Origin: Clostridia bacterium
Lineage (GTDB): Bacteria; Bacillota_A; Clostridia; Oscillospirales; CAG-272
Assembly: GCA_017462125.1 (NCBI GenBank)
Contig: JAFTRQ010000140.1
Span: 1 to 5,294 of the forward strand
Reading direction: 5' to 3'
Length of the DNA: 5,294 bases
Shown: positions 2-5,294 of the stretch, piece by piece
Position numbering within the stretch: the stretch's first letter is position 1
Layout of the letters: each line of letters begins with the position of its first letter
The notes under the pieces: model-generated
Databases searched by the model: none
What the model saw: only the letters and a program-made list of their open reading frames with translations
What the model was told of the DNA's origin: nothing
Translations under genes and position numbers: made by a program

Positions 2-370
2 ATTGAAAATCTCGACCTTGACGGTGAGAATACCGATTATATGAGTCCTCGACGCTTATTTGAAACCTTGAGGGATTCCGGTGTGTTCTTTGACGCGGAT
101 AAATTTGAGGTTATGGAAGCCTACATAGAAGCACGCAGCTTTCGTGACTTTGAGGCTTTGGTCGAACAGAACGGCGAGAGCTGGGACGATGACATTCACC
201 TCTACAAAGGCTATGACTGGGAAGATTACGGACGCGAGCAATTCAGTAATTGCGGCTATGAATTTCCCGGCGATTTAGAAAACTATTTTGACTTTGCCGA
301 ATACGGAGAATCGTTCTCCCACAACGGAACGATTGAAACGTACAGCGGCGGCTTGATCGAAATTTATTAA
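2..370 (+). CDS. ardA: ArdA-like antirestriction protein, 5' end missing
   Basis: The reading frame is open from the left edge to TAA at 368-370, giving 122 visible residues. The ATG at 41 has no ribosome binding site and the frame continues upstream of it, so it is taken as an internal Met. The C-terminal half resembles the Tn916 Orf18/ArdA family. It has a WEDYGREQF segment, then a 'P-x-x-L-x-N-Y-x-D-F-x-x-Y-G' block (about 300 bases into the gene), and ends in GLIEIY, much like the ArdA ending. ArdA proteins are about 165-170 residues, so roughly the first 45 would lie outside the window. The family is known as acidic, elongated DNA mimics that bind and inhibit type I restriction-modification enzymes in the recipient cell during conjugation. 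The fragment is rich in Asp and Glu, as expected. Family assignment is by remembered similarity and the N-terminal domain cannot be checked. Confidence 0.7.
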   Translation: MENLDLDGENTDYMSPRRLFETLRDSGVFFDADKFEVMEAYIEARSFRDFEALVEQNGESWDDDIHLYKGYDWEDYGREQFSNCGYEFPGDLENYFDFAEYGESFSHNGTIETYSGGLIEIY

Positions 371-385
371 AAAGGAGATAAGACA

Positions 386-826
386 ATGACAAACCAATAT
401 CAGATCTTGAAGGACAGACAGCAAAAGGAATTTAACGCTTTCCCGATGGGCGCGGCGTTTAGTCAACAGCAATTCGCGGAAATGATGGCGAAATGGGGCT
501 TGCTCCCTACCGATACCGATAAGATCGTACACATCGGCGGTGGCTGCTATATCCGCAAGACAGACCGTGAAGCGTTCCACGCACTTGTGGAAAAGCTCGA
601 AAAAGAAAAAGAAGATGCACTCGCGGCAGATACGACCGGCGAAGGCATCATCAAAGATATGTTCCTTTACGAGCTTGGCAATCACGAATATTGCATTACA
701 TACGACCTTGAAGATACGCTGGACGCGGTAGGGCTTTCCGTTGATGAAATCAATGCGGACAAGCGGCTGTTGCGCGGACTTGAAAAGGCGCTTTCGCAGT
801 ATTTGAAGGATACGAAAAATTATTAA
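386..826 (+). CDS. Conserved small accessory protein of clostridial conjugative elements, function unknown
   Basis: Encodes 146 residues. ATG at 386 follows AAAGGAGAT (371-379) with 8 bases of spacing, and the gene begins 15 bases after the ArdA-like stop. The protein is soluble, with no signal peptide or membrane segment. The N-terminus (residues 1-35) is rich in Gln and Phe (QQKEFNAFP, FSQQQFAEM). The middle has a 'IVHIGGGCYIRKTD' segment (about 47-60) and then a Lys/Glu-rich helix (about 66-80). The C-terminal half carries YELGNHEYCITYDLEDTLDA. The NHEYCITYD segment looks like the conserved core of a family I have seen in mobile elements of gut Firmicutes, but I cannot name a biochemical role. 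Its position directly after an antirestriction gene makes a role in host takeover or anti-defence possible; this is inference only. Confidence 0.85.
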   Translation: MTNQYQILKDRQQKEFNAFPMGAAFSQQQFAEMMAKWGLLPTDTDKIVHIGGGCYIRKTDREAFHALVEKLEKEKEDALAADTTGEGIIKDMFLYELGNHEYCITYDLEDTLDAVGLSVDEINADKRLLRGLEKALSQYLKDTKNY

Positions 827-3458: not shown

Positions 3459-3704
3459 ATGGGAAATATTACGAACAATCCTTACGGTTACAAGGTCTGC
3501 TATAAGGAAGAAGGTGCGGCGGAATACATAAGGCACTTTATGACCTACACCTACCGTCAAGCCGTTTCCGCTAAAGCCGGATATATTCGCTTCCCTCCGA
3601 GAGCGCGGGAGGACGGACATATTCTCAATAAACCGAAATGGGTGATCATCCCGATCAAACACTCCGAAGTACGTGCCGGCATCTGGCGCGAGGATCCCTT
3701 CTGA
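3459..3704 (+). CDS. Small conserved protein (GNITNNPYGYKVCY...REDPF), function unknown
   Basis: Encodes 81 residues and starts 3 bases after the previous stop. The ribosome binding site is weak (GGGGTGTGAG within 3447-3456), so translation probably depends on ribosomes leaving the upstream gene. The N-terminus NNPYGYKVCYKEEG and the stretch RHFMTYTYRQAVSAKAGYIR (25-44) followed by FPPRAREDGH look like a compact alpha/beta domain with many Tyr and Arg. The C-terminus is KWVIIPIKHSEVRAGIWRED, then Pro-Phe. It is less acidic than its neighbours. I recall close relatives in gut clostridial mobile elements but not a function. The last two codons and stop form part of the terminator hairpin at 3695-3725. 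Confidence 0.83.
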   Translation: MGNITNNPYGYKVCYKEEGAAEYIRHFMTYTYRQAVSAKAGYIRFPPRAREDGHILNKPKWVIIPIKHSEVRAGIWREDPF

Positions 3705-3725
3705 TACGAAGGGGCTTTTTTATTT
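3695..3725 (+). terminator. Rho-independent terminator embedded in a gene end
   Basis: Stem CCCTTC (3696-3701) pairs with GAAGGG (3708-3713) around the 6-base loop TGATAC; a T-G pair (3695/3714) can extend it to 7. Six T (3716-3721), then A and TTT, follow after one C. The stop codon of the preceding gene is the first three bases of the loop. It should end the long operon that enters from the left. Confidence 0.82.
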
Positions 3726-3730
3726 ATACT
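3701..3730 (+). promoter_or_regulatory. Possible sigma-70/SigA promoter for the pcfK-like/pcfJ-like unit
   Basis: TATACT at 3725-3730 is a 5 of 6 match to the -10 consensus. CTGATA at 3701-3706 is a 4 of 6 match to the -35, with an 18-base spacer. Transcription would begin near 3737, giving a leader of about 23 bases before ATG 3760. It overlaps the terminator hairpin. AT-rich sequence makes chance matches likely; the support is that a terminator lies just upstream and the next gene otherwise lacks a promoter. Confidence 0.35.
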
Positions 3731-3759
3731 GAAAAAATTATGAAATGGAGGTAACACAG

Positions 3760-4848
3760 ATGATTACATTGAACCTTACTGCAACCACTACCGAAGAAAA
3801 GGTACTGAAAGAATATTTGGAGCAGAACGTCAGCGAGATACTTGCCGATAAGATCAACAACGGTGTTCCCGTGGAGAAAGACGGCAAGCAACTGATCAGC
3901 CGTAAAACGCTTGCGGGCTTTATGAAGTTTGCTACCGAAGAAGCAAGAAAACAAGCCGAGAACGGAGCTACAAGCGCGTGTGTGCATAGTGACGTTGTTT
4001 TCGGCTGGGCGATCCACTACTTTGAAGAAGATAGCATCCTCGGTACGCTCTATAACGAGGACGGGACGGAGTACAAAGCTCCCAAGTCTGCACCGAAGCC
4101 GAAGAAAGCGGCTGCATCCACTACCGCAACCGATACCAAGACTACTACTCCCGCCGTTTCTGCTCCTGCACCTAAAAAGGCAAATCCCACGGGACAGCTT
4201 ACAATGTTTGACTTTATGGACGAGCCTGAAACGCCCGTTAAGGATGCAGAAGCTCCCGCCGATGAAGCCGCAGAGGATGCCGCCGTAGAGGTCACAGAAC
4301 AGCCCGTAGAGGTCGTTGACGACGAGGTGAAGGAAGATCCCGTTACAGAGGAAAAGCCGCCTGAAAAGCCTAAAATCCTGCCTCTGTACGAGAAGTATCA
4401 GCACTATCAGCAGGAGTTCCCGAACACCGTTGTAGCTATGCGCGTAGGTGACTTCTTTGAGATCTTCGGAGAGGCAGCCGTGACGGTTGCAAAGGAGCTT
4501 GAAATGACGCTGACGAGCCGAGACTGCGGACTTTCGGAGCGCGTTCCGATGATCGGTTATCCCTTCCACGTCGCAGATACCTACCGCGAGAAGATACGGG
4601 CGTTTGCCAATATCGCGGTGATTGACGGCGAGCAGATGAACTTCTATCCAAAGATTGAACCCGTCCAGCCCGAGCCTGTCGCTGTCCTTCCCGATAATTA
4701 CGCGGTTATCGAAGAAACCGGGGAGATCGTGGAGCTTCCTGCCGTTGAGGAACCCCAAGAGCCGCAGGGCGAAGATCCTTACGCCGATATGGATTTGATG
4801 TATAAAATCTATATGCTGCTCGATCAGAAAATTGATATTGTAAAGTGA
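3760..4848 (+). CDS. PcfK/AcrIIA9-like protein fused to a MutS domain I-like module
   Basis: Encodes 362 residues. GGAGG (3747-3751) lies 8 bases before ATG 3760, so this start is preferred over the in-frame ATG 3745, which overlaps that site. Residues 1-108 resemble the PcfK-like family of conjugative elements, to which the Cas9 inhibitor AcrIIA9 belongs (VSEILADKINNG, LISRKTLAGFMKFATEEA, HSDVVFGWAIHYFEED). Residues 109-205 are a low-complexity linker: first Lys/Ala/Pro/Thr, then GQLTMFDFMDE (145-155, a sliding-clamp-binding-like motif), then very acidic. Residues about 208-297 match MutS domain I: PLYEKYQHYQQEFPNTVVAMRVG (in part), GDFFEIF (230-236), LTSRD, and VPMIGYPFHVADTY (262-275). F232 and E234 align with the mismatch-contacting F36 and E38 of E. 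coli MutS. No MutS clamp, lever or ATPase domains follow. The C-terminus is acidic and ends in a short helix. Role is inferred: a DNA or replication-linked factor, possibly also anti-Cas9. Cytoplasmic. Confidence 0.85.
   Translation: MITLNLTATTTEEKVLKEYLEQNVSEILADKINNGVPVEKDGKQLISRKTLAGFMKFATEEARKQAENGATSACVHSDVVFGWAIHYFEEDSILGTLYNEDGTEYKAPKSAPKPKKAAASTTATDTKTTTPAVSAPAPKKANPTGQLTMFDFMDEPETPVKDAEAPADEAAEDAAVEVTEQPVEVVDDEVKEDPVTEEKPPEKPKILPLYEKYQHYQQEFPNTVVAMRVGDFFEIFGEAAVTVAKELEMTLTSRDCGLSERVPMIGYPFHVADTYREKIRAFANIAVIDGEQMNFYPKIEPVQPEPVAVLPDNYAVIEETGEIVELPAVEEPQEPQGEDPYADMDLMYKIYMLLDQKIDIVK
4195..4209 (+). other. Sliding-clamp-binding-like motif QLTMF in the linker
   Basis: Residues 146-150 of the PcfK-like protein read QLTMF, close to the bacterial beta-clamp-binding consensus QL(S/D)LF. 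It sits in a disordered, Pro/Ala/Lys-rich linker, the usual setting for such motifs. It is followed by an acidic DFMDEPE. The match is by eye; binding is inferred. Confidence 0.5.
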
Positions 4849-4862
4849 GGTACAATGTAATG
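4847..4862 (+). promoter_or_regulatory. Ribosome binding site with a start-stop (ATG TAA) before the pcfJ-like start
   Basis: GAGGT (4847-4851), overlapping the previous stop codon, is 8 bases before ATG 4860. Between them ATG TAA (4855-4860) forms a minimal start-stop frame whose last A is the first base of the true ATG. Its spacing to GAGGT (3 bases) is too short for efficient use, so its effect, if any, is probably small. Confidence 0.5.
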
Positions 4863-5294
4863 AAGATTGAAAAAATAAAGCCGATACCGAAATACATCGA
4901 AAAAATGATCCATAAGCGCGACGTAGCCGATTTTCCCAAACAGGACGGCACGTTGCGCTATTATTGTTATCTGACCAAGAATGACGGTGAGCTGGTGAAA
5001 GTAACCGTTGCCGTAAAGAACCGCTGTAAAAAGTGGTATTGCAAGCAGGTCGCCGTCCACGGCGTTCACTCAAAACAGTGCTTTTTGCGTGATATGGTAT
5101 TTTACTACATCGGCGGTTATCGCGTCGGTTGGCACGATATGGGGTTTTACAGTACACCGAGGTGGTATGAAGATGGGCTTTGGGATAATAACGAGGACAG
5201 ATACTTTGATCCGTGGGCTCCACTGGTCAATAAAGAATACCTTGCTAAATTTCCGGAATACAAATACTCCGCTTGGGAGCTTTACAGCGGATAC
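4860..5294 (+). CDS. PcfJ-like protein, 3' end missing
   Basis: The frame is open from ATG 4860 to the right edge (145 residues seen). The gene follows the PcfK-like gene by 11 bases, the same neighbour pairing as pcfK/pcfJ in conjugative elements. The visible part starts with a Lys-rich helix (KIEKIKPIPKYIEKMIHKRD), then a Cys/His-containing beta-like stretch (C36, C56, C61, H67, H70, C74) that could bind zinc, then aromatic segments YYIGGYRVGWHDMGFYS (82-98) and YFDPWAPLVNKEYLAKFPEY (115-134), ending in KYSAWELYSG. The PWAP-VN-EYL-KFPEYKYSAWELY pattern is what I remember of PcfJ-like proteins. PcfJ proteins are several hundred residues, so most lies beyond the window. Their biochemical role in conjugation is not established. 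Translation is probably coupled to the upstream gene. Confidence 0.75.
   Translation, partial: MKIEKIKPIPKYIEKMIHKRDVADFPKQDGTLRYYCYLTKNDGELVKVTVAVKNRCKKWYCKQVAVHGVHSKQCFLRDMVFYYIGGYRVGWHDMGFYSTPRWYEDGLWDNNEDRYFDPWAPLVNKEYLAKFPEYKYSAWELYSGY

Follow-up and report, generated by a model that had tools for sequence, protein, structure and literature searches.

A PcfK-family protein with an isolated MutS domain I and a sliding-clamp-binding-like motif in a Clostridia genome

Introduction

MutS acts as a dimer whose Phe-x-Glu residues point to DNA, and its domain I has residues that touch DNA and residues that touch other domains of the protein. Outside MutS, domain I (MutS-I) has been described in the polyvalent proteins of Bacteroidetes and Firmicutes, which the accessible part of Iyer et al. 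(2017, PMC5512222) presents as the only instance to date. These are multidomain proteins, about 80% of those with MutS-I having ArdC-N as well, and neither PcfK nor PcfJ is mentioned in the accessible main text of that work. The PcfK family has been brought to attention by anti-CRISPR research, since AcrIIA9, which is among the anti-CRISPR families with most homologs, contains a PcfK domain, and among the proteins surrounding AcrIIA9 homologs, ArdA was identified in 56 (PMC6739104, accessible part). ArdA also appears, together with SSB, in the anti-defence islands of plasmid leading regions (PMC11541004), where PcfK, PcfJ and MutS are unmentioned in the main text as far as it is accessible. 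At the level of replication, docking on the sliding clamp has been described for mobile-DNA proteins such as transposases (part of PMC4549789), and the clamp-binding consensus QL[S/D]LF has given way to revised forms that include Q-phi-x-[L/M][F/L] (part of PMC13254535).

Here we describe a gene in which these families meet. It lies in a window of 5,294 nucleotides from a Clostridia bacterium (contig JAFTRQ010000140.1), the whole stretch of DNA that was analysed, and encodes a PcfK-family protein fused to an isolated MutS-I. With the polyvalent proteins it shares an isolated MutS-I in Firmicutes mobile DNA, whereas their ArdC-N-bearing multidomain build is not found in it. With the PcfK/AcrIIA9 family (PF14058) it shares the PcfK core, a clamp-like motif near the end of the match and an adjoining PcfJ (PF14284). 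With the clamp-binding proteins of mobile DNA it would share the docking on the clamp, which is here predicted from sequence. Since isolated MutS-I is reported only in polyvalent proteins in the accessible part of PMC5512222, the PcfK fusion looks like a new architecture, and it was absent among the open papers listed on MutS domain I in conjugative elements or on factors that counter mismatch repair.

Gene organization and domain layout

The open reading frame occupies 3760..4848 on the plus strand, from the ATG at 3760 to the TGA at 4846-4848, and its translation and Pfam matches define a protein of 362 residues composed of PcfK, a linker, MutS domain I and a tail. A ribosome-binding-like GGAGGT was read in the sequence at 3747..3752 (plus strand) and, because it precedes ATG 3760, the alternative start at ATG 3745 (367 residues) is less likely. 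Just upstream of the gene, a terminator-like hairpin with a T run after it (3695..3714, plus strand) was picked up by a pattern scan, which is weak by itself given that three such hairpins were observed in the region against 2.3 expected in shuffles, and RNA folding gives a z of -2.9 for 3690-3726.

The PcfK (AcrIIA9-like) core takes up residues 1-107 (3760..4080, plus strand). The PF14058 match runs over residues 46-151 (E 1.3e-7, 32.2 bits against a cut-off of 27), bearing out an earlier reading of this DNA, made from the sequence only, that had assigned a PcfK/AcrIIA9-like domain. The predicted structure reaches a pLDDT of 84-96 in blocks across residues 1-110, and the model of a PcfK-only relative gave no convincing fold match in the PDB. 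Residues 108-203 form an acidic linker of low confidence in the predicted structure; they are followed by MutS domain I at residues 204-296 (4369..4647, plus strand), recognized by Pfam, by a PDB sequence match and by its predicted fold, and finally by an acidic tail of 66 residues (4648..4845, plus strand) that ends in a predicted helix (342-353) and is common to relatives without MutS-I. MutS_I and PcfK are the only Pfam matches above cut-off in the protein, with none to the effector domains of polyvalent proteins (ArdC-N, protease, helicase, methylase). Every one of the four parts is acidic, the net charge summing to about -35, and this acidity of the whole protein does not favour unaided DNA binding. 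The domain I of host MutS is acidic too, with a median charge of -5.2 against -4.2 in the fusions.

A slimmed MutS domain I that keeps its wedge residues

The MutS_I profile (PF01624) matches residues 208-279 with an E-value of 8.6e-15 (55.4 bits against a cut-off of 20.6), and the top PDB match from sequence alone is E. coli MutS 12-85 (E 3.4e-8). The sequence match spans only profile positions 2-73 of 113. In the predicted structure, residues 201-300 align with E. coli MutS 2-117 (1e3m_A), so the modelled domain is slimmed, not halved. The sequence-only reading had recognized here an isolated MutS-I whose GDFFEIF segment (residues 230-236; 4447..4467, plus strand) would place F232 and E234 at the positions of E. 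coli MutS F36 and E38. Alignments confirm this correspondence, and the structural superposition that was proposed as a check agrees, the model having a hairpin at 223-236 with both residues after the same turn as in MutS.

The likeness to bacterial MutS thus covers the predicted fold, the hairpin with Phe-x-Glu and the majority of the conserved loops around it, and stops there. Pfam found no MutS ATPase, lever or clamp domain before the protein ends at residue 362, as the same reading had stated for the ATPase and clamp domains; the connector is missing as well, and domain I sits between the PcfK linker and a different tail. Accordingly, the MutS equivalog models score far short of their thresholds (65.5 of 480 bits and 57.6 of 641.7 bits). 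Host MutS above the family cut-off is encoded in 36 of 40 genomes carrying the fusion.

The wedge residues are constant. The pattern GDFxE is present in 149 of 149 proteins (the query P0001 and 148 listed homologs, P0002-P0149, all picked by similarity to it). In an alignment of 67 rows including the window protein (A1), with a mean column identity of 26%, nine columns are invariant (Y213, G230, D231, F232, E234, A240, G266, P268 and Y275), all of them within MutS-I. It follows from both observations that the pattern is not due to chance. Residues 233 and 235, the strand neighbours of the wedge, vary among hydrophobics, whereas F232 and E234 are fixed.

The remainder of the domain was compared between 65 different fusion rows and a set of 30 MutS proteins encoded by relatives of the nearest genome. 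The loops R-x-G-D-F-x-E, T-x-R-D and R-x-P-M-x-G-x-P-x-H are mostly retained in the fusions (T252 0.82, R254 0.88, R261 0.91, M264 0.94, G266 1.00, P268 1.00, H270 0.97). Among residues invariant in the 30 MutS, M14, Q16, K21 and D43 are lost, E50 is weakened to about half of the fusions, and the GKVAICEQ end of the MutS domain is mostly lost. This pattern would be expected of a domain that retains its DNA-facing loops and has given up its contacts with the remainder of MutS. In agreement with constraint, dN/dS between the window gene and its relative L009 is 0.09 in PcfK, 0.80 in the linker, 0.12 in MutS-I and 0.25 in the tail. Of 14 pairs, the ratio for MutS-I is defined in 13 and lies there at 0.00-0.25; sequences recur across the pairs, one pair repeats another, and dS is in some cases saturated or very small.

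A sliding-clamp-binding-like motif that recurs in PcfK proteins

A feature overlooked by the sequence-only reading is the segment QLTMF (residues 146-150; 4195..4209, plus strand), which fits Q-phi-x-[LM]-[FL] and falls at the end of the PF14058 match, in the low-confidence linker (mean pLDDT 51 over block 141-150, with a short helix called at 149-153). A second candidate, QMNFY at 292-296, was set aside, as it lies in a confidently predicted strand and varies in more distant fusions. The C-terminal part of E. coli MutS, which binds the clamp, has a similar QMSLL.

Under a broad pattern, which was drawn after part of the family had been seen, a similar motif is present in 85 of 90 parsed relatives against 2 expected in shuffles, that is, in 58 of 61 fusions (0.8 in shuffles; six of the 67 A1 rows were unparsed) and in 27 of 29 PcfK-only proteins (1.2 in shuffles). 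The strict pattern is found in only 14 of the 61 fusions and 14 of the 29 PcfK-only proteins, with 0.1 and 0.2 in the respective shuffles. Both patterns were fixed before plasmid and phage proteins were tested. These proteins were chosen as relatives of a plasmid protein from Vagococcus that its record names 'Cas9 inhibitor AcrIIA9 family protein' and whose C-terminus shows the motif, and in one of those tested (P0150) the motif had already been noticed. In these 13 PcfK proteins (four from plasmids, including the Vagococcus one, and nine from phages, out of 441 plasmid and 27 phage records matched; three are closely similar E. faecalis proteins), the broad pattern occurs in the last residues of 13 of 13 (0.22 expected) and the strict one in 9 of 13 (QISLF, QIKLF, QLDLF, QLDLL). 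As background, the motif appears in the last 45 residues of 32 of 1505 neighbouring open reading frames and in 0 of 78 PcfJ; no p-value is drawn from this comparison, in which related proteins would count as independent. The putative clamp-binding motif therefore recurs across the PcfK family, and a clamp role for PcfK was not found among the matches listed from open papers. The 13 plasmid and phage proteins end at the motif or within a few residues of it, whereas in the fusion MutS-I and the tail come after. The enterococcal and Vagococcus proteins (L132, L133, L134 and L135; 257-269 residues) have an extra region before the PcfK match, N-terminal in this case, so PcfK may act as a chassis onto which different regions are added.

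MutS-I as a cassette

Related genes were collected from 88 loci, 80 from genomes and 8 from a viral collection. The fusion is encoded in 48 and PcfK without detectable MutS-I in 40, a count that includes three loci whose sequence stops soon after the PcfK core (L075, L078, L080); MutS-I was found in none of the eight viral-collection loci. Four near relatives (L019, L023, L038, L042) keep the linker and the final helix and lack MutS-I, and because of them the domain can be described as a cassette. Distances differ between modules in the same pair of proteins (dS 0.55 in PcfK against 0.07 in MutS-I for L053/L057; dN 0.08 against 0.46 for L043/L045), as if MutS-I had been exchanged by recombination. 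In a PcfK tree, built without L067 and L011, the presence of MutS-I needs 17 changes. Well-supported branches force only two of them, so no counts of gain or loss are claimed.

In a database search, 6069 of 7998 scored proteins had an E-value of at most 0.001, and PF01624 was present in 120 of 120 proteins among the matches listed. Nearly all rows among the matches listed in a class-wide search with A1 fit ordinary MutS, a PcfK part being found just in G001 and G218. A region search with MutS-I (93-residue query, 69 proteins), which relies on word sharing and is thus biased to close kin, revealed no small architecture besides relatives of the fusion. The fusion hosts in this sample are mostly Clostridia bins. 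Five genomes (G508, G497, G494, G492, G514) have more than one short MutS-I reading frame each, suggesting several related elements per genome. Three BFVD phage proteins of 74-153 residues that match the model (A0A8S5PPT8, A0A8S5PL02, A0A8S5L9N2) are named as MutS domain I or mismatch repair protein.

Larger MutS-I proteins also exist in relatives of the nearest genome, such as a 2903-residue reading frame in G078 with MutS-I, N6-methylase and SNF2 matches. The genome with locus L024 encodes a MutS-I protein of 602 residues (L129, 3306-5111) with an N-terminal part that is ArdC-N-like by eye and a QKSFFDE after MutS-I that resembles the clamp motif. Another protein, of 526 residues (L123, 7895-9475), carries a divergent MutS-I with Tyr in place of the wedge Phe (NGYFE), and adjoins a 606-residue protein that is ArdC-like by eye. 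Such proteins give some weight to the idea that the fusion is an establishment factor in the polyvalent style, whose MutS-I would shield entering single-stranded or partly paired element DNA and would have no role in mismatch repair. Recognition of single-stranded DNA after entry has been proposed for polyvalent MutS-I, as a prediction, in the accessible part of Iyer et al. (2017, PMC5512222). However, the fusion has neither an ArdC-N nor a protease match, and in a MutS-I tree (every second fusion row, diverged L123 copy omitted), which is weakly resolved and has long branches, the fusions stand apart from three large-protein copies. We consider this explanation unlikely, albeit one to be taken seriously.

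Genomic neighbourhood

The gene that follows the fusion is PcfJ, of which the window holds the 5' part (4860..5294, plus strand). It starts at an ATG 12 bases past the fusion stop (4860) or at a GTG at 4845 that overlaps it, and is 64% identical over 144 residues to a protein of L119 that matches PcfJ with E 1.7e-26. This order recurs: PcfJ, whose representatives match PF14284, starts at most 150 bases from the PcfK end on the same strand in 77 of 88 loci, and in the other 11 the available sequence ends less than 800 bases from PcfK. No function for the PcfK-PcfJ pair was present among the literature matches listed.

The window itself is a run of small plus-strand reading frames, beginning with an ArdA-like antirestriction gene truncated at the start of the window (2..370, plus strand; PF07275, E 1.3e-7) and a DUF7659 gene (386-826, plus strand; Pfam), continuing through a DUF6809 gene and others, and ending with the fusion and the PcfJ start. 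Three small proteins (837-1094, 1884-2168, 2183-2452) look by eye like repeats of one family, the middle one, which is the only one scanned, being that with the DUF6809 match. Ten window proteins were scanned and gave no matches to transfer genes, and PADLOC returned just a weak methyltransferase match (E 0.023) in the window.

Regarding the wider flanks, no clear element type emerged, and the element is assigned neither to conjugative elements nor to phages or plasmids. One flank cluster is present in 16 of 88 loci, its tested member matching the HUH-type replication family REP_ORF2-G2P; another, resembling serine recombinases by eye, is present in nine; clusters 24 and 25 have neither a Pfam nor a named PHROG match. 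The HUH family, to which the replication protein at L084 17543-18577 belongs by its REP_ORF2-G2P match, and unnamed large proteins (e.g., L045 13068-20354) are met repeatedly at a distance of a few kb from PcfJ, in most cases on the other strand. Searches of phage and plasmid collections returned 25 and 53 matching records, respectively, of which one phage record (H1, an unannotated virome scaffold) and no plasmid record cover at least 80% of the query.

In phage genomes, PcfK and the next gene lie near replication or recombination genes, according to the labels of the records themselves, in eight of nine cases, with RecT, Bet, exonuclease, RusA, a replisome organizer, a DnaC-like loader and a replication initiator within about 2 kb; in the ninth, Javan367, every neighbour is labelled hypothetical. 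A PcfJ-sized gene follows PcfK in all nine, and it is PcfJ by Pfam or by label in Clyde, SM1, SE-1 and B054 and a candidate PcfJ, by its size, in the other five. On the E. faecalis plasmid pMG2200, ssb is located about 2.5 kb from PcfK. The surroundings of PcfK are thus a replication and recombination setting.

Discussion

The most economical reading of these data is that of a clamp-docked PcfK protein that took on a MutS-I reader. We propose, tentatively and well short of conviction, that the fusion serves a gut-bacterial mobile element, the mobility itself being inferred, as an accessory replication protein that reads distorted DNA and may compete with host MutS. The PcfK core would serve as chassis, and the QLTMF motif of the linker would dock the protein on DnaN, the sliding clamp of the host, either at forks or on newly copied DNA of the element. 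MutS-I, on its flexible tether, would insert its Phe-x-Glu wedge close to the clamp, into DNA with mismatches, loops or junctions. Because the fusion has no MutS ATPase, lever or connector domains, its action would be passive: unable to call MutL, it would retain PcfK, and perhaps PcfJ through a putative contact, at distorted DNA, from which host MutS would most likely be kept off. Competition with MutS is the boldest step of the proposal and is argued from anatomy only. Weighing against the proposal are the acidity of the protein, the small share of fusions that fit the strict motif, the absence of transfer-gene matches in the ten window proteins scanned, and the fact that MutS itself acts as a dimer.

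The sequence-only reading had proposed that the protein inspects DNA structure, naming heteroduplex during transfer, replication forks and a Cas9 R-loop as targets. Among these the replication fork gains most, owing to the clamp motif and to the eight of nine phage neighbourhoods, heteroduplex in conjugation may also be a target, and the R-loop is weakly served by the Cas9 counts given below. The recurrence of the motif, the pairing with PcfJ and the replication and recombination neighbours in phages together favour a role at the replisome over one at Cas9 R-loops.

The proposal can be extended in two directions, which taken jointly we hold to be rather improbable. In the first, the fusion would be a decoy, one protein mimicking both the clamp-pocket and the mismatch-wedge contacts of MutS minus the ATPase, that blinds host MutS at element forks or where the element forms heteroduplex with copies already resident; element DNA that is diverged or rich in errors would thereby survive entry. 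In the second, the 'AcrIIA9 family' as a whole would consist of clamp-docking replisome factors that sometimes add readers such as MutS-I.

An anti-CRISPR function, with the PcfK/AcrIIA9 domain inhibiting Cas9 and MutS-I helping to read the R-loop or target mismatches, would fit the presence of the PcfK Pfam domain in AcrIIA9 (PMC6739104, accessible part), the label 'Cas9 inhibitor AcrIIA9 family protein' that some records give to PcfK relatives with PcfJ adjoining as here, and the ArdA near the fusion gene. Cas9 (TIGR01865 above cut-off, some split or short pieces being included in all three sets) is encoded in 7 of 40 fusion genomes (from 40 of the 48 fusion loci), in 5 of 32 genomes with PcfK and no MutS-I (all 32 genome loci without detectable MutS-I) and in 32 of 391 sampled genomes of the class, a sample that is not matched to the carriers for completeness. 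It is somewhat commoner in PcfK carriers taken together, with 12 of 72, than in the class sample (p 0.046), and for the fusion genomes alone the comparison with the class gives p 0.075. However, the rate with MutS-I is like that without it (p 1.0), for which reason the association was dropped as support for an R-loop role; Cas9 data leave an anti-CRISPR role of PcfK conceivable and do not link MutS-I to it. Furthermore, 33 of the 40 fusion genomes, which may be incomplete, have no Cas9 above cut-off, and Cas9 inhibition would leave the clamp motif common to phages and plasmids unexplained, all of which makes this function doubtful. Equally doubtful is that MutS-I is kept for protein contacts with Phe-x-Glu conserved merely for hairpin folding, as the acidity of the whole protein and the four near relatives that dispense with the domain might suggest, given that both wedge residues point to DNA in MutS and that F232 and E234 are invariant while 233 and 235 vary among hydrophobics.

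Returning to the clamp-docked reader, the recurrent C-terminal clamp-docking motif of PcfK proteins constitutes a direct and testable lead, and warns that the label 'Cas9 inhibitor AcrIIA9' need not denote an anti-CRISPR in every case. The fusion itself would provide a minimal mismatch reader of natural origin and perhaps a means by which mobile elements respond to mismatch repair, in that mobile DNA may bring along a sensor of its own, or a decoy, for distorted DNA at the replication machinery.
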